49,445 nucleotides of DNA from an archaeon. GTDB taxonomy: Archaea > Nanobdellota > Nanobdellia > Woesearchaeales > GW2011-AR9. Positions 609-39,309 of this stretch are shown in pieces. The number at the start of each line of letters is the position of its first letter. The first letter of the stretch is position 1. The notes under the pieces were generated by a model that searched no databases, was not told where the DNA came from, and saw only the letters and a program-made list of their open reading frames with translations. Made by a program: the position numbers and the translations under genes. The DNA is taken from contig JAHFQW010000011.1 in assembly GCA_023259115.1 (NCBI GenBank), forward strand, positions 1 through 49,445, given 5' to 3'.

Positions 609-2729
609 ATGTACCAAAAGAGGTTGGATAGACGTATAAATAGACCTATTTCTGTTAGCTTCTTTGCTTTTGCCCGTATCTTTTTCCCTCTTTTTTCTCC
701 ACCCTTCCCTCAAAAAATCCATAAAAAAGCTCAAGTCACCATCTTCATCATTCTCGGCTTAGTCCTTCTCATCTCCGTTGCCTTAGTTCTTCTCCTGCAA
801 TCACAAATCATCTCATTTAAAACCGATGAAATCATTCCAACAGAAAAAGGCAAAGTCGAAGGCTACATCACTTCTTGCATTCAACAAGCCGGTGAAGACG
901 CGCTCTTCCAACTTGGCACCCAAGGGGGTTATATCCAACTTCCCACCCAGATCACAAATGATGCCCTGCAATATCTTCGTCTCTCTCCCAACAACGTCCT
1001 TCCGTATTGGGCGTATGGACCAACTACGAGAATTCCTCCCTTAACCGACATCAAAAAACAAATCGACCAATACATCGAAGCCCACACCAAATCCTGTCTG
1101 CTTGATTTACAGCCATTCCAACAAACCTATAATCTCGTTGAAAAAAGTCCTATCGCCTCCGACACCAACATAAACCAAGGCAACGTCCTCTTCAACGTCC
1201 ATTGGGACATCGAAGTGCAAACCAAAGCCGGCGAAAAAATTGCCGAAATCATTCAACACCAAGCCGAGTCTCCCATTAAACTCAAAAAAGCCTACGACAC
1301 CGCCGTACAAATAGTTCAAGCAGAAATGTCTTCATTGAAAATCGAAGACCTCACCCAAGATTTAATCGCGCTCGAACATCCCAAACTCCCCGTCAACGGA
1401 TTAGAATTAAGCTGCACAAAAAAAACATGGGATCCTCAAGTGGCAGAACAAACGCTCAAAGAACTCTTACATCTCAACTTGCGTGAACTGCGCATCAAAG
1501 GCACCGAATTCGTCGAATTTCCTGACACGCTGCCCTATTATCAAAACCACTATGTTTGGAATATTGGCGACACTTTTGAACAATCAAAAATCAATGTCGC
1601 ATTTAATTTTGATGATAGCTACCCTTTCAACTTTGCCATCACTCCTCTCGCAGGCGGAAAAATGCAAAGCTCCCAATTGGGTGGCAGCCAATATCTCTCT
1701 CTACTATGTATTCAGCAATGGAAATTCACCTACGACGTCGTCTATCCCGTATCCGTTCGTATAAAAGACGAAACCACCGGCTACAATTTCAACATCGCCT
1801 TCACCGTTCATCTCCTGCGTAACATTCCCAATCGCGGTGAAATCTCAACCACTCCTAGCCTTCATGTAGATACAATTACTGATGAAAATTACTGTAACAC
1901 CAGAACCATTCCTATGTCCATTAAAACATATGAACTCATCGACAACAACCAAGGGGTCTATGAACGTCAAGATCTTGACAACGTCAATATCACATTTACC
2001 TGTATTCGCTACAATTGTCACATCGGCAAAACATCCTATGACCCCGTTCTCAACTACGCCGGCTTCACCACAAACTATCCTTACTGTCCCGGCGGCATTT
2101 TGCGCGCCACCAAACCAGGGTATAAAGAATCCTGGCAGCGTACCGTCACAACCGCGGGAAAATCTGTTGAACTCAATCTCGCTCCTCTCTATGATTTTCC
2201 TCTGCAAAAAATCAAAATACTCAAACACGAATTAATCAACAATCAACTTGGTCCCGCCAAAGAACTATCCCCCAAAGACACTGCATTAATCAAACTAACT
2301 TACCGAACCACTCCTCTCAATACATCCATTGCACCCGCACTACCCCCCACGACCCCCTCCGTCTCTTCTACCTCCTCACCAACCAATTCTCAAAATTCTC
2401 TCCTCCCCTCCTCCGCAGACCAACCATTTCATGAAATCAACCTCGTGAAAACTGGTACTCCTGATGAACAACTAGAACAACAACAATCACTCCAGTTTCT
2501 CGCCAAAGCCGATTTCACCTATGACCTTGAAATCGATTTGTTCAATCAAGAAAACTTTATCGGTGGGTATAAAAAATCTTGGACCCCGTCATGGGATCAA
2601 CTCTCTTCCGCTAACCAAATCACTCTTCACCTCATCACCAAAGAAAAAGCCAGTGAGCAAGAATTATACGATCTGCTCCTCAATTTAGACAAAAATAGTC
2701 TCATTGTTCCGCAACCTGAGATAAAATAA
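609..2729 (+). CDS. Large exported protein with pilin-type (class III-like) leader
   Basis: This 706-residue protein has a basic stretch (K39-K40) followed by A41-QVTIFIILG and a hydrophobic helix to about residue 64. That resembles an archaeal class III (type IV prepilin-like) leader cut before Q42, with the helix holding the protein in the membrane or in a filament. An extra hydrophobic stretch at residues 15-32 is unusual. The long ectodomain matches no family I recognise. Near residues 575-605 there is a Pro/Ser/Thr-rich spacer typical of surface proteins. It is the first gene of a co-directional series of exported proteins reaching 12851. The start rests on the TATA box at 580-587. Function unknown; a structural or assembly role at the envelope is inference. 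Confidence 0.75.
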   Translation: MYQKRLDRRINRPISVSFFAFARIFFPLFSPPFPQKIHKKAQVTIFIILGLVLLISVALVLLLQSQIISFKTDEIIPTEKGKVEGYITSCIQQAGEDALFQLGTQGGYIQLPTQITNDALQYLRLSPNNVLPYWAYGPTTRIPPLTDIKKQIDQYIEAHTKSCLLDLQPFQQTYNLVEKSPIASDTNINQGNVLFNVHWDIEVQTKAGEKIAEIIQHQAESPIKLKKAYDTAVQIVQAEMSSLKIEDLTQDLIALEHPKLPVNGLELSCTKKTWDPQVAEQTLKELLHLNLRELRIKGTEFVEFPDTLPYYQNHYVWNIGDTFEQSKINVAFNFDDSYPFNFAITPLAGGKMQSSQLGGSQYLSLLCIQQWKFTYDVVYPVSVRIKDETTGYNFNIAFTVHLLRNIPNRGEISTTPSLHVDTITDENYCNTRTIPMSIKTYELIDNNQGVYERQDLDNVNITFTCIRYNCHIGKTSYDPVLNYAGFTTNYPYCPGGILRATKPGYKESWQRTVTTAGKSVELNLAPLYDFPLQKIKILKHELINNQLGPAKELSPKDTALIKLTYRTTPLNTSIAPALPPTTPSVSSTSSPTNSQNSLLPSSADQPFHEINLVKTGTPDEQLEQQQSLQFLAKADFTYDLEIDLFNQENFIGGYKKSWTPSWDQLSSANQITLHLITKEKASEQELYDLLLNLDKNSLIVPQPEIK

Positions 2730-2769
2730 ATAATCCTAAAGATAATAACTAAGAATAATAACTAAAAAA

Positions 2770-5700
2770 ATGATCAAACACAAACAAGAAACAAATACAC
2801 TCATCCATAAACTGTTCGCCCTTCTAGTCCTCGCTCTCTTCATAAATCTCCCTCTCGTCTCGGCGGTAGAAATCTCAAGCGTTCAAGCTATTGACATCAC
2901 AACTAATAGCGCCACCATCAAATGGGCCACAAGCGAACCCGCTGACTCTTTTGTTCATTATGGCAAAGATAAAATTACTCTGCAAACTCTCGGTGATGCC
3001 AACTCCCTAGTCAACCACACATTTCCTCTCACCAATCTCAACGAAAACACTCAATATTATTACAGCGTTGAGAGTAATAATCTCATAGATGACAACAAAG
3101 CATCACTGTATTCATTTCAAACTCTCCCCCCTGACCTCACCCCCCCTGCATTATCCATCACCGCACCTTCATTCATCGCCGGAACCAAACTGGATATAAC
3201 CGGTACAACTGAACCCGGTGCCAAACTCACTCTATTTGTAAACAATATTCTCATTGACACAAAACTCACTCTTGCTATTATCCCAAACGCTGCCTCTTCA
3301 TCCCCTGCAACAGTTCCCTTCACATTTACCAATATCCAACTGCAGCCAAACCAACCAAACAACCTCACAGTTGACGCCGTAGATAAAGCCGGCAATAAAG
3401 CAACCTGGGAAAACACCATTACCACCGACAACAAAAAACCAGAACTCTCTCTCCCTCCCATCCCTGCCACTCTTCCTTCAACCTCGTATCAACTCAATGG
3501 CACCATCTCCGAAAATAGCACCTATGAAATCATCATCAACAATAAATCAACCAACAAAGCTCAAGGCCAAATTATTTTCCAAACCCTCGAATTAAAAGAA
3601 GGTGATAATACCATTCTCATCACTGCCACCGATCAAGCCGGCTGGACCACCGAAAAAACTTTTTCTACCAACGTGTTAGGTCATGAACCAATTGTTAAAT
3701 TTTCCATTGAGAAAGGCAATAATTATTTTGAAGGCTCAGGCCGTACCACCTCTGATATCTCTGGTACAACTTCACCTAAAACTAAAGTATATCTCTTTAT
3801 CTACACGCCTCTTGGCTACGAATTCACGCCCAAATTTGATGAAGCATGGGAACAAACCACTTCCAATGAAAAAGGTGAATTTACATTTAAAGAGGTTGAT
3901 GTTGCCGGGAGTAAATTAAGTCTGGTCAAATTAACTCCCAAACAAACCCCTCCTGGCTTAGAAAAATTCGTCATCATGCCCATTGATCAAGCCGCTGCAT
4001 CTCAACAGATGCTAAAATACGTCTATGTTATCGCAGAAGATCCTTTGGGTAGAAGAAGCGATCCTCGTCAAGCCACTGCCACCCTCACCATCAACAAATG
4101 CTCGTCTGTGAGTAACGACTTCTCCATCTTCTCGCTGCCCCAATTCCAAGCGCCTCTACGCTTAAATCCCAATTTACTCGACCAAGGTCGCGAAGTCATC
4201 ACCGCTGTGTTCAATATAAGTTATCGTGGTCAAGGATTAGCTGCCCTCACCACCGGTTCAAATGCTCCGTATCAAATCAACAACGTGCAATTTGAAAAAG
4301 CCTGTACTCAAGGCATGCTCCAAGATCCCCAATTCAAATTAGCCTGTAACATGATACCCGCAAATACTCGGCAAAAAACACCTAACGGTGATAAAACCTC
4401 CTGGTACGTCGTCTACAATCTCAACAGCGCCGAAAAACTCAGCGAAAAAAAAGACAGTTACTGGAACGAATTCAAGAAACGTCAAATTGTCTTCCCCATG
4501 AAAATTCGTGTTGACTATCAGGACCGCACTCTCAATGGTCAACTCTCCGAACCTAAAACTCAAATATTCTGCACTGACCTAGGCTACTACGTTGACATTC
4601 CTATTGATAGTAAAGATATGATTCCCGACACTCTTGCCGATGCCACAATTGATTCCACAAATTTTGTCATGCGTCAGATCGATAACATCATGCCCTATCT
4701 CGAAACATCCATAAAGATTTTTGGTGTCAGCTGTATTGGCTCATTCCTAGGCCGAACCGCCATTCGCTGGGCAAGATTATTTACTTCAAAAAGTGAATTT
4801 GTTTTAGATAAAATAAATTCTAAGAGTAGTAATGGAGATGGCGATAATAAAAAAGATGAAGACAAATCCTGTCCTTCTCCTCTTGAACAGAATAAATTAC
4901 TTTTAGAAAGCACCATTGATGAATGGACAAAACTCTCAACCACTGAACAAAATACTATTGTAGAGAAATACGGTTCCGATTGGGCAAACAAAAAACTCTC
5001 CCTAGATCAACGATGTCCTAAAACCGCATCCTTATGGAGTGCCGAATCAAAATTAGACACACTCTACAAATGGAGTTGTGATCGTGTCTTTTGCCGTGGT
5101 GTTCCTGCTAGATGGACTGCATCTAAAGAAAAATTAGATGTAGATAAAGTGGTGCTCGCACAACAACAATGCGCCGCCTCAGGCAGTGGTGTGCCATTGC
5201 AATTAATGGAAAATTGCCAAGATCTCATTAAACAAGACGCTACCGGAAACACCATCGCCGCTGCCATGGTAAAAAAAGGCTCATTTAACTGTTATCGCGC
5301 CAATGATAAATTATATGTCATTGACACAACCACTCCTCCCAAAGAAAATATCGTTAAGTTACAATTAGTAAAAGAGTATGGTTTAACTGTGCAAGAATAT
5401 TTACAAAAATATGCCGGCGAAACCAATCTTTTTGCTTATCGTACACCTGGTTCCGAAAACTTTATTGTAGGCAAAGATCAAAGTTGTATAGATGTCTGTA
5501 AAAATCCGAAACGTACTGGTTACAAAGCAGATATCATCAATGGTGTTAGGAATAACTATCTCCCTGCTGGTTCAACTACTGCTCTCTCAGACCAAGCTCA
5601 CGGTTGCTACAAAGAAGCAATTGATCCTGCAACAGGCACCATTCAACTTCAAGATGGAAAAGACCAACTTCTCAAAGGCCAAGGTTACTCCGCCGGTTAT

Positions 5701-8700
5701 ACCACTGACTGTTTCATAGACGAAAATGCAAAAGGCGAACCAGTAGGTACCAATTCCGATAAACGCACAACCGGTCTACTTCAATGTGTCTGTATCCCAA
5801 CCAACCAACCAACTATTCCCACTTTTGGCGCTCGTAGTGCAGGTAAAGAAGATACCACAAATCCAGATAACGCTGAAGATTGGAATTATCAACAAAACCA
5901 ACTCTTCCGTGAATCTCATGGTGTGTTTGGAACGTATTATCCCGAATGGCGATATTATTCCAGTCGTGACTTTTCTCAAGCATTTGGTGCAAATTACCTC
6001 ACTGATTATCTGCGCTCCGGCAAAGAACAATTTCCTCAAGTCAATCCCAAAACACAATACCTTGGTGCCATTCAAACCGCTTGTCTGAGCACAACCAGAG
6101 CAAACCTCTTAATGCTGCGCAGCATTCTGCAAGGCCTCAACAACTGTATGGTTGAAGCAAAAAAAACCGGTTTGCGCGACGCAGGAGTCTGTAAAACCTA
6201 CTTCTCTCAGCACGTATGTGGCTTATTATACAAGAGCATTGCCGCATTAAATGACGGCTGTACAACATACAATTTTGATGACGTTGTCAAGGGTGACACC
6301 GTTGGTGGTATTAGCGAAGTCTTCTCCGCTGGATTCAAATCAATCCCTGAAGCCATGTCCTCATCCATTTCTGATATTAAATCAGATTACGGCAACGCCA
6401 AATTAAATGAATACTTTGCCACCGGAACACAAGGCTTTGCCCAATCATTATGTATGGCCGCGTTTGGCTTTGATTGGCCTATGGGCATGGATTTCATAAC
6501 CGATGCCGCCTACTCCGTCTCAACTAAAACAACTACTCTAGTCACTCCCGCCAGTCGTGAACTCTCCACCTACGATCCCACCACGGGCAACGCTGTTTAT
6601 AATTACGAAATTGGCGCATTAATTTTCCCTGGCTGTAAAGTGCGCACCGCCGATGTCTCACTCAAATGTGTAGGCGTTGAAGATCTCGGTAAACCCGGCG
6701 TTGATTGTGGCAGCCAAGGCTGTGACTGTGTCCAGGCAACCCAAACCACACCATTTGAAACAGAAAAAACAAAAGCACTTGATCAGGGACGTAAATTCAA
6801 TCTCCCTCGCGGGCAGATGGTGGATATGAAATTACCTTCACCTCAAAAAGTGACCTCCCATTATCGTTATGATCACGTTGTTGTGGATTTAACCGTTGAT
6901 CGTTTTGAAGACGCCGCCAATTGTTTTGATACAGAATACCTCCCCAAAAACGGTAACACCGTACGATTTTATTTTCCTATTCGTGATGTTTCACCCCCTG
7001 GCGAAATTGCCTGTCAAGTTGATCTACCCACGGGTCGTTATATCTGTCCTGAACTCTTCGCGTTATTTGGTGGCGGTGCCAATGCCTATCTGGAAGACCC
7101 CTACACCAGCTGCTTTGACAAAACAACAAGCACATGGGTATCTTGTGACACACCTAATCTCTTCCTCAAAGATGATACAATTAGAATTAAAAATCATCTT
7201 CTGTTAGATGGCGGAAAATATTGTTTGAAAACAACCGTCACAGGACTAAGCACAAATATTCAAGAATATCCCCTTCGTCCTCTCTCTGAAAAGATTACCG
7301 GTTCCATCACTCCTGAAATGAACTTAGGCACAGTTACCCCTCAATTATTTTCTGGCAGCACCAGCAATCTCGAACTTCAAACCGGCAGCGATCCCGGTTG
7401 TGCTCAGCCGCAAATAGATACATTTGGCAAAGCGATTAATGCCCAAAACTATCGTTTCCTCTACCAAATCAATTCCGCAGGAGAATATCATATAACCATA
7501 GATAACGGTGTCAATGTTCTTTTGCCATATAAAATAGAAAACAACATCTTAAAAGACCAAGCAGGCAAAGATTTCATCAAACCTGATGATCTCCTCAAAG
7601 TCAAATTTGATTTCAATGGCGTACAAGCACATAATTTAGTTGGTCCAGCCAAACCCACTATCGTAACTTCCACCCCTTCTGGTTCCTGCACATATCATGT
7701 CACGGCAGGAATTTCTGGAGCACAAGGTATAGACAAAAAAGCTATCAGTGTCACAACTGAACTAATGTATCCCGATAACACCGGCGGCTGTGACAACGCA
7801 TTCCAACTCGTCAAAGCTCCTTCCGCCTACGGGAAAAACAAACACACTCAAAATATTATCATTCAATTACAGCCCCAAGCCGCCCAAGCCATTAAAACCT
7901 TACACGACGAATTCATGGCGGGCAATTGTGGTTATGTCAAATCTGTCACACAATCCGTTATCGATCGTAAAAAAAGCGATCTCGAAGACGCTCAAGCATT
8001 ATATTATTCAATAGCCTGTAACATCATCCAACACCAACAGCAATGGAATCAACCTCCTGCAAAGGATAACACCTGTCAACTGCTCAAAATATTCTTTGAT
8101 AGAACATATTTTACAGGTGAGACTACTTCACCCTATTCTTCTCTCATCACAAATACTGCTGAATATCAAAAGATATACGTTTACTTAACCGAAGTCAAAA
8201 ATAAAGCAGGTTGTACTGGAATAAACGGTGGTGGCTCTACCACTCCAAACACCAACACTAATTGTGGCACAAATAACGTTCGAACTGATTTTGCTCAACC
8301 CTCAAACTGGAATCAATATACTTGTCGAGAACCACAAGGCTTTGAAACTTGTTATTCCAAAAATCAGTATGACAATGCAAACATCAATTTACCTACAGGC
8401 ATGCAGCATGGCTGTCCTGGAACACAAAAATGCTGCCATTCCACCTCTGGTTCTGGTGGTAGTGGTGGCGGCTCATCAGGAAGCGGAAAGTTATGTGGTG
8501 ATTCTAAAGCCCTCTTCAAATTTTCAATTAAACCTTTAAATAACGATGATACACCTGTAGCTGATACTTGGAAACCAACTTCTTGGTCTAGCTACATCTG
8601 TAAACCTTCCACCGGTCAACCACAATTAACGCAACCAGCACCTGGCGGCAAACTCTATGCTAGAGATTTAGAAAAAGTGTGCTGGGATTACTCTAAATAT

Positions 8701-8778
8701 TCCAATGCCCAAACAACTGACATTTGTCCTTCTGCAGATCCCACAACCTACCAACTCTGCTGTCCCCCTTCCTCATAA
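2770..8778 (+). CDS. Giant secreted protein with FN3, Ig-like and Cys-rich modules
   Basis: This 2002-residue protein has a signal peptide (hydrophobic core about 14-32, cut near A32/A33). A fibronectin-III-like domain follows (about 34-117, with TTNSATIKWAT and NTQYYYSVES), then two Ig-like domains (about 120-310; each ends in a 'D.AGn...' turn). Residues about 310-1800 are long unassigned segments with many cysteines. At the C-terminus two similar Cys modules (C1832 to C1888-C1889, and C1909 to C1997-C1998), each ending in adjacent cysteines, are joined by a Gly/Ser linker (about 1890-1907). No catalytic motif was recognised. The size, repeats and disulphide potential fit a surface adhesin or a scaffold for the enzymes encoded downstream; that role is inferred. 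It starts 40 nt after the 609 gene, probably in one transcript. Confidence 0.8.
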   Translation: MIKHKQETNTLIHKLFALLVLALFINLPLVSAVEISSVQAIDITTNSATIKWATSEPADSFVHYGKDKITLQTLGDANSLVNHTFPLTNLNENTQYYYSVESNNLIDDNKASLYSFQTLPPDLTPPALSITAPSFIAGTKLDITGTTEPGAKLTLFVNNILIDTKLTLAIIPNAASSSPATVPFTFTNIQLQPNQPNNLTVDAVDKAGNKATWENTITTDNKKPELSLPPIPATLPSTSYQLNGTISENSTYEIIINNKSTNKAQGQIIFQTLELKEGDNTILITATDQAGWTTEKTFSTNVLGHEPIVKFSIEKGNNYFEGSGRTTSDISGTTSPKTKVYLFIYTPLGYEFTPKFDEAWEQTTSNEKGEFTFKEVDVAGSKLSLVKLTPKQTPPGLEKFVIMPIDQAAASQQMLKYVYVIAEDPLGRRSDPRQATATLTINKCSSVSNDFSIFSLPQFQAPLRLNPNLLDQGREVITAVFNISYRGQGLAALTTGSNAPYQINNVQFEKACTQGMLQDPQFKLACNMIPANTRQKTPNGDKTSWYVVYNLNSAEKLSEKKDSYWNEFKKRQIVFPMKIRVDYQDRTLNGQLSEPKTQIFCTDLGYYVDIPIDSKDMIPDTLADATIDSTNFVMRQIDNIMPYLETSIKIFGVSCIGSFLGRTAIRWARLFTSKSEFVLDKINSKSSNGDGDNKKDEDKSCPSPLEQNKLLLESTIDEWTKLSTTEQNTIVEKYGSDWANKKLSLDQRCPKTASLWSAESKLDTLYKWSCDRVFCRGVPARWTASKEKLDVDKVVLAQQQCAASGSGVPLQLMENCQDLIKQDATGNTIAAAMVKKGSFNCYRANDKLYVIDTTTPPKENIVKLQLVKEYGLTVQEYLQKYAGETNLFAYRTPGSENFIVGKDQSCIDVCKNPKRTGYKADIINGVRNNYLPAGSTTALSDQAHGCYKEAIDPATGTIQLQDGKDQLLKGQGYSAGYTTDCFIDENAKGEPVGTNSDKRTTGLLQCVCIPTNQPTIPTFGARSAGKEDTTNPDNAEDWNYQQNQLFRESHGVFGTYYPEWRYYSSRDFSQAFGANYLTDYLRSGKEQFPQVNPKTQYLGAIQTACLSTTRANLLMLRSILQGLNNCMVEAKKTGLRDAGVCKTYFSQHVCGLLYKSIAALNDGCTTYNFDDVVKGDTVGGISEVFSAGFKSIPEAMSSSISDIKSDYGNAKLNEYFATGTQGFAQSLCMAAFGFDWPMGMDFITDAAYSVSTKTTTLVTPASRELSTYDPTTGNAVYNYEIGALIFPGCKVRTADVSLKCVGVEDLGKPGVDCGSQGCDCVQATQTTPFETEKTKALDQGRKFNLPRGQMVDMKLPSPQKVTSHYRYDHVVVDLTVDRFEDAANCFDTEYLPKNGNTVRFYFPIRDVSPPGEIACQVDLPTGRYICPELFALFGGGANAYLEDPYTSCFDKTTSTWVSCDTPNLFLKDDTIRIKNHLLLDGGKYCLKTTVTGLSTNIQEYPLRPLSEKITGSITPEMNLGTVTPQLFSGSTSNLELQTGSDPGCAQPQIDTFGKAINAQNYRFLYQINSAGEYHITIDNGVNVLLPYKIENNILKDQAGKDFIKPDDLLKVKFDFNGVQAHNLVGPAKPTIVTSTPSGSCTYHVTAGISGAQGIDKKAISVTTELMYPDNTGGCDNAFQLVKAPSAYGKNKHTQNIIIQLQPQAAQAIKTLHDEFMAGNCGYVKSVTQSVIDRKKSDLEDAQALYYSIACNIIQHQQQWNQPPAKDNTCQLLKIFFDRTYFTGETTSPYSSLITNTAEYQKIYVYLTEVKNKAGCTGINGGGSTTPNTNTNCGTNNVRTDFAQPSNWNQYTCREPQGFETCYSKNQYDNANINLPTGMQHGCPGTQKCCHSTSGSGGSGGGSSGSGKLCGDSKALFKFSIKPLNNDDTPVADTWKPTSWSSYICKPSTGQPQLTQPAPGGKLYARDLEKVCWDYSKYSNAQTTDICPSADPTTYQLCCPPSS

Positions 8779-8796
8779 TCAAAAAGTGCATTTAAC

Positions 8797-9348
8797 ATGA
8801 ACAAAAAAGCCTCCGCCATAGTGGAAATATTCATAATCCTCGTAGTTATAGTTCTCACAAGTGCCCTCGTTCTCTTCCTGGTCAAAACAGGCATTCTCAC
8901 CATTAAAAATCAAGCCAATCAACCGCCCATTCTCAACACCGAATTCATTCCCTATGCCCGAGAAGGAACTCTCACCATAAGTGAATTTGCCTTTTGTTCT
9001 TATGCCAACGAACAATACCAATGTCTTGATCCAAAGAATCATTTTACCATAGGTGAAGACGCCTATTTTCGTTACATCATTAAAACCACCCCTTACAATG
9101 GTGACATCCTTCTCATTGAAAATTATCGTATCCTCTCCTCTACTGGTAAAGTTATGCTCGACATCGATAAAAAAAACAACTATCATTATGATATAATCTC
9201 CCAAGAACCAACCGAATCCATTTCATTCAAAGACTATTTCACCATTGGCAAAGGTATTCCCTCTGGCACATACAGTATAGAACTCCTCATTGAAAATCCT
9301 CTCCTCAACAAAAAAACAACCCTAACCCAAACATTTGTGGTAGAATAA
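8797..9348 (+). CDS. Small type IV pilin-like protein
   Basis: This 183-residue protein begins MNKKASAIVEIFIILVV. That is a textbook prepilin leader: a short basic n-region, a cut after A5, and glutamate at position +5 of the mature chain (E10), followed by a hydrophobic helix to about residue 29. Family knowledge says such leaders are cut by a PibD/PilD-like peptidase and that the helix packs into a filament core. The ectodomain (residues 35-183) looks beta-rich and contains C67-type isolated cysteines, but I do not recognise it. It lies 18 nt after the giant protein gene and 6 nt before the SGNH/transglycosylase gene, so it is almost surely co-transcribed with both. A pilus or anchor subunit for the exported enzymes is the simplest inference. 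Confidence 0.75.
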   Translation: MNKKASAIVEIFIILVVIVLTSALVLFLVKTGILTIKNQANQPPILNTEFIPYAREGTLTISEFAFCSYANEQYQCLDPKNHFTIGEDAYFRYIIKTTPYNGDILLIENYRILSSTGKVMLDIDKKNNYHYDIISQEPTESISFKDYFTIGKGIPSGTYSIELLIENPLLNKKTTLTQTFVVE

Positions 9349-9354
9349 ACCCTC

Positions 9355-10866
9355 ATGAAATCCAAATTAAAATCTAAATTACTCTTGGTGGTATCTTGCC
9401 TCCTACTTCTCTCTTCTTTCGTTCTCGCTGACAACATCCTCATTTTGGGTGACTCTCACTACGCTGGAACATATGGTCATGAATTAGATACACTCCTCAA
9501 ACAAGCCGGCAACACCGTTGAGAGTTATGGCTGTGTTTCCGCATCTCCCATTTGGTACACCGAAGGGAAGAATCAATGTCAAAAATTAGTAGGTTCCACT
9601 ATTTCAGGTACAATTACAGAATACCCAACCCCCTCAATAAACACTCTGTTACAAAAAAAGTACAATCTAGTACTCATTTCATTGGGAGGAAATCTTGAAG
9701 CAAGTACCACATCCAAAGATGCTCGTGTTACACAAATCTCAAACTTAATTAAACCAATTGCCTCAAAAAACATCAAATGTATCTGGATTGGTCCGCCAGG
9801 GAAAAATGATCCTACAGAATCAATCTCTCGTGACACATTCTACACCCAACTCCAAGAAGCTCTCCAGAACCAATGTCAATTAATTGACTCCCGTCCCTAC
9901 GCAAAACTCAACAAAAATGAAATTCATTTCACTGACCAACAACGTCCCACGAATTGGGCCCACAGCGTCTACGATCAACTCCTTCCCCTCATCACTTTCA
10001 CAGGTCCACCCCTCTCCGCCATGGAAACCGATGACGAAACAAAAATTTATGCCCAATTTGAGAGTGAACCTCAAATTATAGAAGACACTTCTCTTCCCCA
10101 AGAAACCAATACCCTTGGATTCCAACCCGGAGTCACCCAAGCCTCTTCTCAAACAACTCAAAAAGCCTACTGTAATGATATCCCTCGCTGCCAACAACTC
10201 GATGAAGTCTGGACAAAACGTATTGGTAGTCTCATCAACCCTCAGCACGCCCAACAAATTTGGAATACCGCGCAGCAATCCTGGACCACATTTGAAGAAG
10301 TGTATAATCCCCTTCCTAACTCTTTTGCCCAATCATTTCCTACAACCACAACTCTTCCCATCCCAGAAGAACTTCTGACAAAGAAAGTCCAGCAGGATCT
10401 TGAAAATAATAAATATAATCAAGCATTTCTCACAAAAGTGAATACCATATCAAGCGAACTCAATATCAACCCTGCTCATCTCATCGCCGTCATGCGTTTT
10501 GAATCAGGATTTAAACCCTGTGCCAAAAATAAACTAAGCGGTGCCACTGGATTGATTCAATTTCTCGAATCCACTGCAAAAAAACTTAAAACAACCACTA
10601 AAGAATTATGCGATATGACTAGACTAAAACAGCTTGACTACGTTGAAAAATATTTCCTCATTTTCAAACATAAACTTCGTCCTAATAATTTTGGCGACGT
10701 TGCCATGGCTGTATTTTGGCCTCGAGCCATAGGAAAAGAGGATTCCTATGTCTTATTCAACCAAGGAACGAAAGCCTACACCGGCAATGCCGCATTAGAT
10801 CGTGACCATGACGGCTCCATCACTAGGGTCGAATACATCAATTTTGTAATTAAACGCAGTCAATAA
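9355..10866 (+). CDS. Secreted SGNH-hydrolase / lytic transglycosylase fusion with EF-hand
   Basis: This 503-residue exported enzyme has a signal peptide (1-25, cut after VLA). An SGNH-type hydrolase domain follows (about 27-215): block I GDSH with S34, block III G111-G112-N113, and H191 in EIHFT. The acid of block V is N188 rather than Asp. Residues about 273-321 hold a Cys-containing module (CxxxxxCxQLDEVW...) also present in the next gene. Residues about 360-470 form a lysozyme-like SLT domain with the catalytic glutamate E383 in MRFESGF and the GATGLIQF motif (396-403). The C-terminus carries a canonical EF-hand loop D482-x-D484-x-D486-G-x-I-x-x-x-E493, probably binding calcium. Family knowledge: SLT domains cleave the MurNAc-GlcNAc bond of peptidoglycan, and SGNH domains often remove acyl groups from sugars. 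The natural target is therefore bacterial murein. Confidence 0.85.
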   Translation: MKSKLKSKLLLVVSCLLLLSSFVLADNILILGDSHYAGTYGHELDTLLKQAGNTVESYGCVSASPIWYTEGKNQCQKLVGSTISGTITEYPTPSINTLLQKKYNLVLISLGGNLEASTTSKDARVTQISNLIKPIASKNIKCIWIGPPGKNDPTESISRDTFYTQLQEALQNQCQLIDSRPYAKLNKNEIHFTDQQRPTNWAHSVYDQLLPLITFTGPPLSAMETDDETKIYAQFESEPQIIEDTSLPQETNTLGFQPGVTQASSQTTQKAYCNDIPRCQQLDEVWTKRIGSLINPQHAQQIWNTAQQSWTTFEEVYNPLPNSFAQSFPTTTTLPIPEELLTKKVQQDLENNKYNQAFLTKVNTISSELNINPAHLIAVMRFESGFKPCAKNKLSGATGLIQFLESTAKKLKTTTKELCDMTRLKQLDYVEKYFLIFKHKLRPNNFGDVAMAVFWPRAIGKEDSYVLFNQGTKAYTGNAALDRDHDGSITRVEYINFVIKRSQ

Positions 10867-10898
10867 AAAATTATTTAAACCATATAATTCCCTAAACC

Positions 10899-12851
10899 AT
10901 GTCAAAATCAAAAATAATTACCTCTCTCTTTCTTTTAATGTTATGCACCTCTATTTTCTCACTCGCACAAGACTCTCCTTCTTCATCTGATAACCAAGAC
11001 TACGAAGAAGGTGATGAAGTGAGCACAACAACCGCTAACGGTTTTGGTCCCTCTCAACAAACATCCGCCACAACTAATCCTCTCTCATTCTTTTCCTGTC
11101 TTGACACTCAACAATGTAAACAACTCGATGAAGTCTGGGCGTTACGTATCAGTTCTTTTGTCAATCCAATTCATAATTCCCAGGCATGGGATGTCTTCAC
11201 CCAACCTCCTCAATGGAAATCATTTCAAGATCTCTACACTCCTCAACCATTCACTCCCTCTTCTCCTAACGCCCCTTCCACATCACCCTTCATTGAATAC
11301 CCTCAAAGTGGTAACTGTCTCACGCTTGCTTTTTCCAATTCACAAAGTGAAGACGCATCCAAACGTACCTCCATTAATTTTCAAGGACAATCTCTGAGCG
11401 TCAATAAAATCATTGCCCCTCTCTTCAAGCAAATTGATTTAGAAATCACTGCCGCTCATCTCTCCTACTCATTTAGTCGCCTCGCCACCGGAAAATGGCG
11501 CTGCGTCAATTCCCCTATTATCCACATCATCAACCCTACCACTTGCGAAACCAATAAAGGAAAAATAGCTCGCAGCAAACACAGCTTTGGCATTGCCATT
11601 GACATCAATCCTGCTCAAAATCCTTTTTGCACAAAAGCTGCAGATAACAAATATTACCAGAATAGCAATGAATGTCATCCCACGATTCCCCCTGAAGTTG
11701 TAGCCATCTTCAAATCTCATGATTTTCGTTGGGGTGGCGACTGGGATAACGCCAAAGATTACATGCACTTTGATTGGAAAGGTAACATCGGCGACTTCAA
11801 TGGAGATGGCACGATAGAATCCTGTGGTACCCAACCAACTCCAACATCACCATCTTCCCCTGCTCCCTCAACCTCTTCTCCAACCGCTCCCACCGGCAAA
11901 GCATGGGAACAATACACCACTCAACAAGCATGGTATGAAGCACTCACCTTGCGTAATATACAAGGAAAAACCGTCATCACCAAAATCCCCTCCAATGGCA
12001 AAGACGATGCATTCAACAGAATTGACACCGGCCGCGACACCATACTCTTTGCACCCGCAACAACAGACTTCACAAAACCCGTAGACATACTATATTTCTT
12101 TCATGGCCTTGGCGGTTTTGGTCTTGATATGTATGAACGTGTCATTCCCCAAGCAAAAATCCTCTCTGAGAAAAACAAAAATGTTGTAATTATTTTTCCT
12201 GAACTCCCCTGGTCACGTGGTACATTCTCAGAAGACAAACCCAATTCACAAAACCCTCGTATCCAAGGACGTGAATCACTCGCCTGGAACGGCCAAGATT
12301 CTAATTTCCTACAATTTCATCAAGATATCCTACAAATTCTCAATCAACAATTCGCTAATAATAATTTTCAAAAAGGTAAAATAATCCTAGTTGGTCACAG
12401 TAACGGCGGCTCCGCCCTTGGTCAAGCAGCAAAACAAGGCGCTCTCAATAGTATCAACCCTGATGTCATCACCTTCTCCGATGCAGATTACAAATGGCAA
12501 AGCCAATTAGCAGCACAGAACGTGTGGGATAATTATGTCAAAAATAACCCTCAAGTCGAATTAAACTTACTCGTCCAATCATCTCCCGATGCGGAAGGCC
12601 AAAAACCATTTAAATACGCCCAAGAATTCTTATCAGCAAATAATTTTGTGCTCAATTCTAATCAACAAACACAACATTTTCCTCCCAACCTCAATTATGT
12701 TCCTCTCACAAGATCAGAACTCCAAACACTTCCCGTAACCACCGATTCACCCCATCGCAAAACCCCTGATACCTCAAATCACGCATACATCGCTCGAATG
12801 TCTATTGTCTGGACCATGACCCATGACCAAACTCTGAGCGTAACAAGTTAA
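10899..12851 (+). CDS. Secreted M15-type peptidase / alpha-beta hydrolase fusion
   Basis: This 650-residue exported protein has a signal peptide (1-23) and then the Cys-containing 'CxQLDEVW' module at about 67-117, as in the preceding protein. An M15 (VanY/Ply-like) zinc peptidase domain covers about 160-295, with ligands H228 and D235 in SKHSFGIAIDIN and H290 in YMHFDW. An EF-hand-like loop follows (D299-x-N301-x-D303-G-x-I306), then a Pro/Ser/Thr linker. The last domain (about 335-640) is an alpha/beta hydrolase with the nucleophile elbow G499-H-S501-N-G-G and an oxyanion-type HGLGG motif. M15 enzymes cut D-Ala or L-Ala-D-Glu bonds of peptidoglycan stems; the hydrolase substrate is unknown. 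It lies 32 nt after the transglycosylase gene and is presumably in the same transcript. Both murein bond types (glycan and peptide) are thus covered by adjacent genes. Confidence 0.85.
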   Translation: MSKSKIITSLFLLMLCTSIFSLAQDSPSSSDNQDYEEGDEVSTTTANGFGPSQQTSATTNPLSFFSCLDTQQCKQLDEVWALRISSFVNPIHNSQAWDVFTQPPQWKSFQDLYTPQPFTPSSPNAPSTSPFIEYPQSGNCLTLAFSNSQSEDASKRTSINFQGQSLSVNKIIAPLFKQIDLEITAAHLSYSFSRLATGKWRCVNSPIIHIINPTTCETNKGKIARSKHSFGIAIDINPAQNPFCTKAADNKYYQNSNECHPTIPPEVVAIFKSHDFRWGGDWDNAKDYMHFDWKGNIGDFNGDGTIESCGTQPTPTSPSSPAPSTSSPTAPTGKAWEQYTTQQAWYEALTLRNIQGKTVITKIPSNGKDDAFNRIDTGRDTILFAPATTDFTKPVDILYFFHGLGGFGLDMYERVIPQAKILSEKNKNVVIIFPELPWSRGTFSEDKPNSQNPRIQGRESLAWNGQDSNFLQFHQDILQILNQQFANNNFQKGKIILVGHSNGGSALGQAAKQGALNSINPDVITFSDADYKWQSQLAAQNVWDNYVKNNPQVELNLLVQSSPDAEGQKPFKYAQEFLSANNFVLNSNQQTQHFPPNLNYVPLTRSELQTLPVTTDSPHRKTPDTSNHAYIARMSIVWTMTHDQTLSVTS

Positions 12852-15468: not shown

Positions 15469-15597
15469 GCCCCCGTGGCTCAGCGGTTAGAGCGGATGGC
15501 TGTTATTCCTTATAACATAAGGGAAAGAGACCATCAGGTCACCAGCGGTTCTTAGAACTAATCTAAGATTCGGTGAATTCAAATCTGGTCGGGGGCG
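15469..15597 (+). tRNA. tRNA-Asn(GUU) with two introns (anticodon loop and T arm)
   Basis: Exons are 15469-15505, 15530-15545 and 15578-15597, giving a 73-nt mature tRNA without encoded CCA. Acceptor GCCCCCG pairs fully with CGGGGGC. The D stem is GCTC/GAGC. The anticodon stem is GATGG/CCATC with loop CTGTTAA after splicing (GUU at 15502-15504). T stem ACCAG/CTGGT pairs fully, with loop TTCAAAT and discriminator G. Intron 1 (15506-15529, 24 nt) is at the usual 37/38 site; its inner stem is 15507-15513 with 15517-15523. Intron 2 (15546-15577, 32 nt) lies between positions 53 and 54; a CACC/GGTG central helix (15540-15543 with 15572-15575) and 3-nt bulges place both cuts exactly at the exon ends. 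Confidence 0.9.
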
Positions 15598-22069: not shown

Positions 22070-23410
22070 TTACCTTGCCAACATCCTATCAATTTTCACT
22101 CTACTCACCATATAAGAATATCTATCAGGTAGATTTCCATATCCATATATATCTACGGGAATGCTATCATATCCTGAAACAATCTTTCCAGATTCCCAGC
22201 GTAATAACAACGGTACGGATGTGATCTGTATACCCAATTCCCGTTCTAAGCGTGCCGTATCTGGCGCATTTTTGACTTTTCCCTCTTCAAAATCATTCTT
22301 AAACACATACACCGGAACTGTTTTCTTTTTCTCCTCTAAGCGTTCTGCTAAAAAAGAAGAAAGATTCTCACACGCTCCACATCCATCGGCTTGCACATAG
22401 AATACAGCATTTGGTTCTGCCAGTGCTCTACTATGCATTGCCTCATCTTGTACTAAAAACACTTTTCCTTCTCGAGCTAATTGATCAATAGTCGGTTCTC
22501 TAAAGGATTGCACCGGACTATTGGGCATAAATACAGAAAATAACATAGAACTTGGTTTTACTTCTGGCACTAATATCGGATTATAACTTCCTCTCATCGT
22601 AATATGTGCTTTCGCACCGCCCTTATCTAATGCTTTTGTCGTATACTCCAGCGCATCTGTAAGTGTTACATTTCTCTTGTCATCTAATCCCCAATTAAAC
22701 GGCGTATGAAAAAACTCATTTGCAAAATAAACACAACTATCCGTTTGTCCTTTCGCTGATTTAGTAATCGCGGTAATATTCTCCCCTCCCACCACTTCTG
22801 CAAATCCCTCTCCGTTACACCCATCAAAGACTACCACTCCTTTATACGATTTTTTTCCTTTTTGTAGTAATTCACTCAAATGTTGATCCGTCAATTTATC
22901 ATAACGACCTCTCGCAAATGGTTCATTTAATTGTGCATAACTATTCTTTTTCTTCTCATCCACGCCGCCATGTCCTGTAATATATACAAACAGTTCCTGA
23001 TCCGTTGCCAGTTCTCCTACCAATCTCTCCAGCGTCACTTCCGTGTTTCGTAACGTTGCCAACCCTTCAATGTGAGGCAAATAAAATCCTCCCTCTGTAG
23101 CATCATTTTGCAAATATCCTACTTTCTGTTTAGGAAATGCCTCATACGGTGCGGATAAGATGGTAATATCTTCACTTCCATATCCAATGCCTAACAGAAA
23201 TCTTTCTGCTCGCACAATATTCTCCATATGATAAAAATCCCATTGATCACCATTAAGAATCAGTGCTTTTCCACGTTTGGTTCGTTGTGGATATTGCGGA
23301 TGAAATTCTTCTGTTCGCTGTGATAATCTACTCGCACCACATGCGTTTAATCCAATTCCTGCCGCAGTTAGCCCTATTCGTTGTAAAAAATCCCTTCGTG
23401 CTATATCCAT
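22070..23410 (-). CDS. Tat-exported lipoprotein: caspase-like (C13/CD clan) plus thioredoxin-like domain
   Basis: This 446-residue protein starts with a twin-arginine signal (R5-R6-D-F-L) and a lipobox ending C24 (LNAC), so it should be exported folded and lipid-anchored. Residues about 45-290 look like a CD-clan cysteine peptidase of the legumain/caspase kind: His147 in YITGHGG and Cys198 in VFDGCNGEG, each after a hydrophobic strand. Residues about 320-430 resemble thioredoxin, with C344-G-A-C347 and a cis-proline-like TSVPLLLRW segment. The fusion is not one I know. The TATA box at 23433-23440 supports a leaderless start. Possible role: redox-linked processing of surface proteins (inference). 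Confidence 0.7.
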   Translation of the reverse strand: MDIARRDFLQRIGLTAAGIGLNACGASRLSQRTEEFHPQYPQRTKRGKALILNGDQWDFYHMENIVRAERFLLGIGYGSEDITILSAPYEAFPKQKVGYLQNDATEGGFYLPHIEGLATLRNTEVTLERLVGELATDQELFVYITGHGGVDEKKKNSYAQLNEPFARGRYDKLTDQHLSELLQKGKKSYKGVVVFDGCNGEGFAEVVGGENITAITKSAKGQTDSCVYFANEFFHTPFNWGLDDKRNVTLTDALEYTTKALDKGGAKAHITMRGSYNPILVPEVKPSSMLFSVFMPNSPVQSFREPTIDQLAREGKVFLVQDEAMHSRALAEPNAVFYVQADGCGACENLSSFLAERLEEKKKTVPVYVFKNDFEEGKVKNAPDTARLERELGIQITSVPLLLRWESGKIVSGYDSIPVDIYGYGNLPDRYSYMVSRVKIDRMLAR

Positions 23411-38064: not shown

Positions 38065-39309
38065 ATGAAAAAAAGAACAATTCTCGCAAGCATCTTAGCT
38101 ATTATTTTAATAATCGTTGCTGGATGTAATGTAAAACCCGGTCAAGGCCTCTCCAGTAGCAATGCTGAACAAACCAACTTAGCTGGACAAGCAACGGCAA
38201 CTGAAGTAACCAATTGTAACGCCGATTCCGCTTGTAGTACCGTATACAAAAAATGTCTCAATGAACAATGCACTGGCTTAAAATCAAGATATGATTATTA
38301 CACATTAAAAATAAAGAAAAGACCTGTTTCTAAATCAGACTTTAGTTCATATACTAAATTTAAAAACGACTTCAAACAATGTGATAATGATTGTTATGAC
38401 TCCGCTCTGGCTGCAACTATCTACTATATCGCTCCCGGACCTGCACCTATAACATTAAAATGTGGTGATACCATTACCAGTGATACAATTCTTGCAAGTG
38501 ATATCACCTGTGGAAAATTAGGTCCTGGGTTATCCTTTGCTGCGGATAACGTTGTACTCGACTGTAATGGTCATGGCATTGCCGGTCCTCAAAATCTACA
38601 ATATACTCCAGGGTTAAGCGATGATGCCGCAAAAGCAGAAGCAAAAGCTATTGCCGGCACAGTTGGAATTAATATCGATAGCCATAAAGGAGTTACTCTT
38701 AAAAATTGTAACATCGAAGGCTTTTACAGTGGTATTTCCCTTCAATATGCCGACAACGCTAAAATCTTAAATAATGTGGTTAACCAAGCACAAGTAAGTG
38801 GCTTACGCATTTGGGTTACCAATACCGCAGAAGTCTCAGGGAACACATTTATGGGTGCATCAGGTAAAGAGTACCTTCAAGGAAATGGCGTCTGGATTGG
38901 CAACTCCGTTGATATTGCTTTAAAAAACAACATTATCAAAGATAACCCTCACGTAGGTATTATAATTGGGACTATAAGCGGTTCTGTAACCGGAAATACC
39001 ATTCAAAACAATGGTGGAAAAGGTCTTCAACTCGCTGGCACAAGTACTTTAGCAATAAACAACAACAACCTATGTAATAACAAAGAAGGAGATCTTTACT
39101 TTGCTCCCGGCAGTTATCCTCTTAGCAAAGGGGTTTTAAGTGGGACAGGGAACAAGCTTCAAAACATTGTAGCTTCCCCTACCGCATTATATGGTGTTGG
39201 TGTCCAAAAAGATTTTAAAACGATTCAAGAACTCTTGAATATCGTAGGCTGGCCAATGAAAGGAAAAGATTACACTCTGTGTAATCCAAGTGCAATCTCC
39301 ACCCCTTAA
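38065..39309 (+). CDS. Lipoprotein with right-handed beta-helix (NosD-like) domain
   Basis: This 414-residue protein has a leader (ILASILAIILIIVAGC) with a lipobox ending in C21. After a Cys-rich stretch (about 50-115) it has a parallel beta-helix (about 135-370) with the repeating PbH1 pattern ('..N.i...g.GI.l..s....i.gN.i..n'), seen at VVLDCNGHGIAG, VTLKNCNIEGFYSGI, AKILNNVVNQAQVSGL and GSVTGNTIQNNGGKG. Such surface proteins usually bind or cleave polysaccharide. The catalytic residues cannot be assigned. Confidence 0.85.
   Translation: MKKRTILASILAIILIIVAGCNVKPGQGLSSSNAEQTNLAGQATATEVTNCNADSACSTVYKKCLNEQCTGLKSRYDYYTLKIKKRPVSKSDFSSYTKFKNDFKQCDNDCYDSALAATIYYIAPGPAPITLKCGDTITSDTILASDITCGKLGPGLSFAADNVVLDCNGHGIAGPQNLQYTPGLSDDAAKAEAKAIAGTVGINIDSHKGVTLKNCNIEGFYSGISLQYADNAKILNNVVNQAQVSGLRIWVTNTAEVSGNTFMGASGKEYLQGNGVWIGNSVDIALKNNIIKDNPHVGIIIGTISGSVTGNTIQNNGGKGLQLAGTSTLAINNNNLCNNKEGDLYFAPGSYPLSKGVLSGTGNKLQNIVASPTALYGVGVQKDFKTIQELLNIVGWPMKGKDYTLCNPSAISTP

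Follow-up and report, generated by a model that had tools for sequence, protein, structure and literature searches.

A putative surface scaffold with an exchangeable slot for predicted murein hydrolases in a family of Woesearchaeota

Large proteins of Pacearchaeota and Woesearchaeota (up to 3000 aa) with a murein-transglycosylase domain have been reported as fam00969 (Castelle et al. 2021, PMC8204110), and GH23 transglycosylases of 'vampiristic' Woesearchaeota have been read as signs of predation (Vigneron et al. 2022, PMC9723730), according to the parts of the two papers available to us. Moreover, archaeal peptidoglycan hydrolases are known to kill bacteria; they were acquired piecemeal and are prominent in Nanoarchaeota (Strock et al. 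2025, PMC12352652). In view of these published DPANN murein enzymes, the word 'undescribed', which a sequence-only reading had applied to the locus presented here, was too strong. The locus shares with fam00969 the archaeal groups, the murein-transglycosylase domain and the proposed contact with bacterial walls, and fam00969 may include the giant protein family treated below; a swap slot, a tag, the partner proteins O1 and O3 and a range of hydrolase classes are, however, not described in the available part of PMC8204110. Likewise, it has in common with the 'vampiristic' organisms the GH23 transglycosylases in Woesearchaeota, whereas the available part of PMC9723730 describes neither a gene neighbourhood nor a scaffold system. 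The slot proteins resemble the enzymes of Strock et al. (PMC12352652) as predicted secreted murein hydrolases of archaea without murein, but that survey demanded a known wall-binding domain, and a Pfam search of the slot proteins yielded no LysM, PG_binding or SH3 match; they carry a lineage-specific tag instead and adjoin a surface scaffold. The organisation into scaffold, tag and slot appears to be unpublished, and the swap slot, the common tag, the fusions and the giant as a class-wide core protein go beyond what the sequence-only reading contained.

Two further systems offer a comparison. Polymorphic toxin systems of bacteria combine a constant carrier with an exchangeable effector domain in one locus, as was found here, but the slot enzymes are predicted to target murein and to be exported by Sec, with no known secretion machine. 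The producer seems to be without murein, and no immunity gene was noticed beside the slot: in the neighbour lists inspected, it is followed by fpg, S14, an enolase-like gene or an oppositely oriented PH-domain gene, with no obvious immunity gene among them. The cellulosome, with its scaffoldin and dockerin-tagged enzymes, is similar in its Ig-type scaffold and in enzymes bearing a common short tag, but no cohesin or dockerin was matched here by Pfam, the slot tag is unrelated to them, and only one or two slot enzymes are present per genome.

The window, i.e. the whole stretch of DNA that was analysed, comprises 49,445 nt of contig JAHFQW010000011.1 (assembly GCA_023259115.1, Candidatus Woesearchaeota) on the forward strand. 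Five genes encoding exported proteins are located at positions 609-12851, all on the + strand, with intergenic gaps of 6-40 bases and deduced products of 706, 2002, 183, 503 and 650 aa. The ORF coordinates along with Pfam and PHROGs searches confirmed the five co-directional exported genes recognised earlier from the sequence, including two pilin-type leaders, a giant, an SGNH plus SLT protein and an M15 plus alpha/beta-hydrolase protein. A bacterial contaminant contig was ruled out by the eIF2-gamma gene that is also present in the window and by the identical gene order in dozens of archaeal MAGs; the titles of the relatives' records name Ca. Woesearchaeota. Because the O1-O2-O3-slot order recurs across the GTDB family, the comparative data indicate that the five-gene locus is not a chance arrangement.

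The first gene (O1; 609..2729, +) specifies a membrane-anchored, exported protein of 706 aa with a pilin-type leader (KKA/QVTIF; predicted cleavage after A41, TM ~37-63) and a multi-beta-domain ectodomain, whose AF2 model (pLDDT 79.8) gave no convincing match, and no pilin, in a Foldseek search against the PDB. The giant O2 (2770..8778, +; 2002 aa) contains a Sec signal peptide, N-terminal FN3/purple-acid-phosphatase-N and Ig-type domains (Pfam) and a Cys-rich centre, with 34 invariant Cys columns in an alignment of 22 homologues. Foldseek retrieved no matching fold from the PDB for the giant's residues 430-1500, and sequence profiles yielded no known fold for its core or for O1. The gene for O3 (8797..9348, +; 183 aa), which lies immediately 5' of the slot gene in most relatives, encodes two invariant Cys and a prepilin-like leader (KKA/SAIVE, with Glu at +5) that is kept in most homologues. 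O1-O2 are conserved across the order, and in the GTDB family O3 joins them as part of the conserved core; the helical core domain of the giant (6040..7092, +; aa ~1091-1441), matched in other families and orders, occurs throughout the class and is the most widely conserved part of the protein. Most giants outside the family are without a recognised hydrolase, and the scaffold therefore has another, older role. In relatives, a gene of ~268 aa is located upstream; we take its product, from the sequence, to be a PAC2-type protein, and the gene, which looks like a housekeeping gene, was left out of the system.

The first slot protein, ORF4 (9355..10866, +; 503 aa), comprises a signal peptide, an SGNH esterase-like domain (weak Pfam match), the slot tag (10171..10305, +; aa 273-317; pattern CxxxxxCxxIDxxW ... 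W) and an SLT lytic transglycosylase domain (10411..10833, +; aa 353-493). The latter passed the Pfam cut-off (E=3.5e-8), matched a phage baseplate-hub family of PHROGs (4e-41) and has 9udh as its best solved relative (E=5e-31); its catalytic Glu383 precedes a GLIQ motif, and the SLT fold occurs together with the ES and GLxQ motifs of GH23. The second slot protein, ORF5 (10899..12851, +; 650 aa), consists of a signal peptide, the tag (11097..11237, +; aa 67-113), an M15 peptidase with an M15_4 core (11568..11777, +; Pfam 6e-21) and an alpha/beta-hydrolase part (11931..12848, +). In the peptidase, the Zn ligands (H-x6-D and H) and the catalytic pair (D-x2-H) are represented by H228-x6-D235 and D287-x2-H290, which align with 2vo9, the closest solved L-alanyl-D-glutamate peptidase. 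The alpha/beta-hydrolase part is weak in Pfam, has a GHSNGG nucleophile elbow at aa 499 and is homologous to the domain fused with M74 on the L197 giant (E=9e-54). The closest relatives of both enzymes are phage-type lysins. A loss of catalytic residues, named beforehand as grounds for rejection, was not seen, since the SLT and M15 motifs are intact in the ORF4 and ORF5 sequences.

The own genome, which is 96% complete, contained neither a Mur_ligase_M match indicative of Mur ligases nor a Transpeptidase match indicative of PBPs, with positive controls in both searches. The proposed check for mur genes thus found none of the Mur ligase or PBP transpeptidase type, by which murein metabolism or self remodelling of the archaeon was ruled out. 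Together with the intact motifs, this result upholds the earlier claim of exported murein hydrolases in an archaeon, here one without Mur ligases or penicillin-binding transpeptidases.

A search of relatives for the same five-gene order had been proposed; the O1-O2-O3-slot order proved to be conserved, whereas the enzyme content of the slot varies. A recognisable murein hydrolase is encoded in the slot of 30 of the 33 family genomes (seven of these being weak matches), and the slot protein of the other three carries no recognised murein domain. The hydrolases are drawn from about 11 unrelated families, catalytic motifs were found in many copies, and many slot proteins additionally contain esterase, phosphatase, nuclease or deacetylase domains; SLT proteins are present elsewhere in these genomes, too. 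The hydrolase class is unclustered on the scaffold tree, with 20 changes versus a shuffled mean of 20.0. In the sister pair L042/L144, O1, the giant and O3 are 67-84% alike and the tag is 67% alike, and the catalytic parts after the tag are non-homologous; the tag has stayed in this slot and the enzyme parts have been replaced.

The tag common to the slot proteins comprises ~45 residues with the IDxxW motif and is short and weakly conserved; among 288 genomes searched, it occurred in slot genes only. Its similarity tracks that of O3 given the similarity of the giant (partial r 0.44; 0 of 2000 permutations), a correlation that could be explained by shared recombination because O3 and the slot gene adjoin. 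The tag could instead be a wall-binding or spacer element. In other families, murein domains (M15, M74 or amidase_2) are fused to the giant itself, in the combinations M15+ABH, M74+ABH and amidase_2. The tail of the L100 giant resembles SLT (4e-5), with Gly at the Glu position in a pairwise alignment; as the catalytic Glu is seemingly absent, it was counted as degenerate and not as an active SLT. Judged from sequence comparison, the murein hydrolases are co-linear with the giant scaffold and evolutionarily tied to it, fusions included.

The reading that we favour, with a probability of roughly 0.6, is a membrane-anchored surface scaffold of this Woesearchaeota family that carries exchangeable enzymes directed against bacterial walls. 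The pilin-type helices of O1 and O3 would anchor both proteins in the archaeal membrane, and the two would hold or align the giant of ~2000 residues outside the cell. The slot enzymes would be exported by Sec and attach to the scaffold via the IDxxW tag, with O3 or the giant as the likeliest partner, and the scaffold-borne murein-cutting domains would face neighbouring bacterial walls. There, ORF4 would strip esters from glycan strands and cleave the strands, and ORF5 would act on peptide stems as well as on an ester or amide. From lineage to lineage the enzyme part changes fast, which would be expected if the bacteria that serve as prey, hosts or competitors are not the same. In this scheme, we infer the physical docking, the display, the bacterial target, the murein-hydrolase activity and the benefit. 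Points that speak against it are the short, weakly conserved tag, the adjacency of O3 and the slot gene, the slot proteins with weak or no murein matches, the giants of other families that carry no recognised hydrolase, and the SLT proteins encoded elsewhere in these genomes.

A variant of this explanation with another benefit is attachment to a bacterial host, the murein enzymes locally opening or gripping the wall of a host on which the archaeon lives as an episymbiont rather than a killer. We regard it as a real possibility, though not as the expected one. The small genome and DPANN lifestyle, the adhesin-like FN3/Ig domains of the giant, the wall binding proposed for large Pace/Woesearchaeota proteins in the available part of Castelle et al. 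2021 (PMC8204110) and the SLT-like L100 tail, whose apparent lack of the catalytic Glu is compatible with a binding role, speak for it. However, the catalytic motifs in many copies and the fast exchange of classes agree better with a target that changes than with a single stable host, although hosts may change as well. It is unlikely that the slot proteins are released freely to digest walls and scavenge dead bacteria, with O1-O2-O3 as an unrelated surface protein encoded upstream: they look Sec-exported and the accessory domains of many would suit digestion, but the enzymes turn over at a slot whose position and tag persist, and giants of other families carry fusions to three different murein domains.

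Very improbable is a non-murein target, for instance surface glycans of the archaeon itself or, if methanogens are the hosts, their pseudomurein. Most slot families cut MurNAc or D-amino-acid bonds, both of which are absent from pseudomurein, and one slot holds about eleven unrelated families sharing murein as substrate. Nevertheless, single SLT or M15 domains may be repurposed, and a link between Woesearchaeota and methanogens is mentioned in the available part of PMC9723730. As regards a pilus, the own genome and most of 12 other family genomes tested contain a prepilin peptidase, yet the own genome provided no strong match to a pilus ATPase (PilB/FlaI type) and none to the T2SSF platform (controls positive), the one weaker ATPase match (8e-16) being a 774-aa open frame of a kind common to all family genomes. 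A strong pilus ATPase match and the T2SSF platform are also missing in 10 of the 12 others; G009 and G012 possess an additional ~500-aa ATPase at 1e-32 or better, and G012 and G036 have pilin-like gene clusters that encode fusions of a pilin-like N-terminus to a following SLT domain. The pilus-linked device of the sequence-only reading was accordingly abandoned and a pilus device ruled out for the own genome; despite these fusions, the prepilin peptidase and the pilin-type leaders of O1 and O3, a pilus or pseudopilus bearing murein hydrolases at its tip is the least credible alternative in view of the missing machinery and the O1 fold search that returned no pilin.

Tentatively, and at slightly less than even odds, the surface scaffold may represent a new class of anti-bacterial surface machine in archaea: a class-wide DPANN giant, anchored by pilin-type proteins that form no pilus, would have become a plug-in platform in one Woesearchaeota family, where hydrolases of many origins, including captured phage-type lysins, are docked by a lineage-specific tag and replaced fast as prey or hosts change. 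The system offers a testable molecule, tag and scaffold, and the slot represents a naturally assembled set of wall-cutting enzymes that have a carrier tag in common. Archaea would have evolved a logic of exchangeable effectors that has until now been described chiefly for toxins of bacteria. Woesearchaeota are one of the most diverse groups of DPANN archaea, and, to our knowledge, hardly anything is known of their partners and lifestyle. The gene set points to an inbuilt means of attacking bacteria, of feeding on them or of attaching to them, and a conserved slot reserved for enzymes against bacterial walls would mean that bacteria, and not archaea alone, are targets or hosts of Woesearchaeota.

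The five genes of the exported block (609-12851) lie on the plus strand with short gaps, as the sequence-only reading had described them, and its domain assignments were reproduced by Pfam and PHROGs for the FN3/Ig domains of the giant protein (2002 residues) encoded by the second gene, for the SLT domain of ORF4, whose closest PHROGs family is a phage baseplate-hub family, and for the ORF5 peptidase, classified as M15_4. The best solved relatives are the lytic transglycosidase 9udh (5e-31) for ORF4 and the L-Ala-D-Glu peptidase 2vo9, which we take to be a phage endolysin, for ORF5. Both sequences retain intact catalytic motifs and carry predicted Sec-type signal peptides. The genome containing the window (1.57 Mb, 96% complete; the window is contig 23) has relatives titled Candidatus Woesearchaeota, of which a groundwater MAG is the closest. 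Neither a Mur ligase nor a penicillin-binding transpeptidase was detected in this genome, and the controls matched as expected. Another genome of the order (G041) contains three Mur-ligase-type matches on contigs C2 and C7, two of them strong (5e-52 and 7e-46), which possibly represent a pathway for a murein-like polymer. Elsewhere in the window, positions 15469-15597 encode an interrupted archaeal tRNA that carries additional sequence in its anticodon arm and was recognized by Rfam but missed by ARAGORN; 22070-23410 is a 446-aa ORF with a weak match to peptidase C13 (legumain/caspase-like), and 38065-39309 encodes a NosD/beta-helix protein.

By pairwise search, the giant is present in 35 of 37 genomes from its GTDB family, counting the one studied here. 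Outside the family, such searches detected it in 15 of 23 genomes from the same order; certain weaker matches reach no further than the FN3 part. With a profile, 139 of the 288 order genomes searched were positive, and the helical core domain of the giant was traced into other orders of the class. A homolog of O1, the first gene product, almost always precedes the giant, and O3 follows it in the family. Neither O1 nor residues 430-1500 of the giant, modelled with AF2, had a convincing match in the PDB. The two family genomes without a detected giant, one of them 0.7 Mb in size and 95% complete, represent a natural loss useful for comparison.

The slot gene or genes following O3 in the family encode exported mosaic proteins. 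Among the 33 genomes with a slot gene, counted by hand from domain-match tables, 23 have a murein-hydrolase domain that passes the curated cut-off or matches strongly in PHROGs, seven have weak matches only, including L069 with DUF2272 alone, and three (L039, L047 and L048) have none in Pfam or PHROGs. The classes comprise SLT, lambda-R-like endolysin, Phage_lysozyme2, glucosaminidase and SleB-type Hydrolase_2 domains as well as Amidase_2, M15_4, VanY, M23, M74 and DUF2272, the last being only probably wall-active. They are accompanied by SGNH, alpha/beta-hydrolase, calcineurin-like phosphoesterase, endonuclease/phosphatase, polysaccharide deacetylase or FGE-sulfatase domains.

Mapped onto a tree built from 30 giants, wall-enzyme class required 20 changes, equal to the mean of 20.0 for shuffled labels. 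Nearly every slot protein contains a tag of about 45 residues (C-C-IDxxW in the N-terminal half, then a second W), usually with the wall enzyme close behind it. In the sister pair L042/L144, with 67-84% identity for O1, giant and O3, the tag is 67% identical, the enzyme parts behind it are non-homologous and only 30 residues match ahead of it; in L073/L146, both flanks differ around a tag with 49% identity. Tag similarity tracks O3 similarity after correction for the giant (partial r 0.44, 0 of 2000 permutations), a correlation that is only suggestive, given that the slot gene lies next to O3. A profile search of the 288 genomes of the order located the tag in 16 family genomes, at slot genes and one truncated contig-end ORF, with one weak match in another family.

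Pilin-type leaders were confirmed on O1 and O3, that of O3 with the classical +5 Glu. The suggested link to a pilus was not supported: a prepilin peptidase is encoded in the genome of the window, no T2SSF platform was found there, and its sole T2SSE match (8e-16) lies within a 774-aa open frame, unlike the ATPases of about 500 aa with strong T2SSE matches in G009 and G012, the only two of 13 family genomes tested that have both platform and pilus ATPase. A role as membrane anchors is therefore the better reading for O1 and O3. SLT domains fused behind a pilin-like N-terminus occur at L031:15235-16782 (genome G036) and L032:5609-6544 (G012, which has pilus ATPase and platform), as part of gene clusters that encode several small proteins resembling pilins; judged by eye, the L031 protein also appears to carry a von Willebrand A-like domain at its end.

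In other families, giants terminate in M15 plus alpha/beta hydrolase (L099), M74 plus alpha/beta hydrolase (L197) or amidase_2 (L228), all without the tag motif. These fusions provide independent evidence of a joint action of giant and wall enzymes. No hydrolase was found in most other giants outside the family, and the original role of the giant must therefore be something else. At L100:9947-12277, a giant bears an SLT-like C-terminal stretch with Gly at the position of the catalytic Glu in a pairwise alignment, possibly a conversion to a binding domain. C-terminal regions exceeding 1000 residues are present in six giants of 3073-3695 aa (L195, L196, L198, L205, L225 and L226), and Pfam found no family in them where scanned.

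SLT proteins occur in 162 of the 288 genomes of the order. Earlier papers report large murein-like transglycosylase proteins in Pace- and Woesearchaeota (Castelle et al. 2021, PMC8204110) and GH23 in Woesearchaeota (Vigneron et al. 2022, PMC9723730); bacteria-killing archaeal hydrolases were described by Strock et al. 2025 (PMC12352652), who counted only proteins with known wall-binding domains. No description of slot, tag or fusions was found in literature searchable without subscription. A second conserved murein-enzyme locus is present in two genera (L034 and L035), where a membrane-anchored protein carrying an SLT domain is encoded close to a GatE-like amidotransferase gene.

We favour, with a probability of about 0.6, a surface-anchored scaffold to which exchangeable murein hydrolases directed against bacteria are putatively docked. 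Judged from known families, the SGNH domain ahead of SLT could strip O-acetyl groups that block transglycosylases, and the M15 enzyme would cut the stem peptide. The genes listed after the slot include no obvious immunity gene, which fits a producer without murein, and the benefit to the archaeon may be feeding, killing or attachment.
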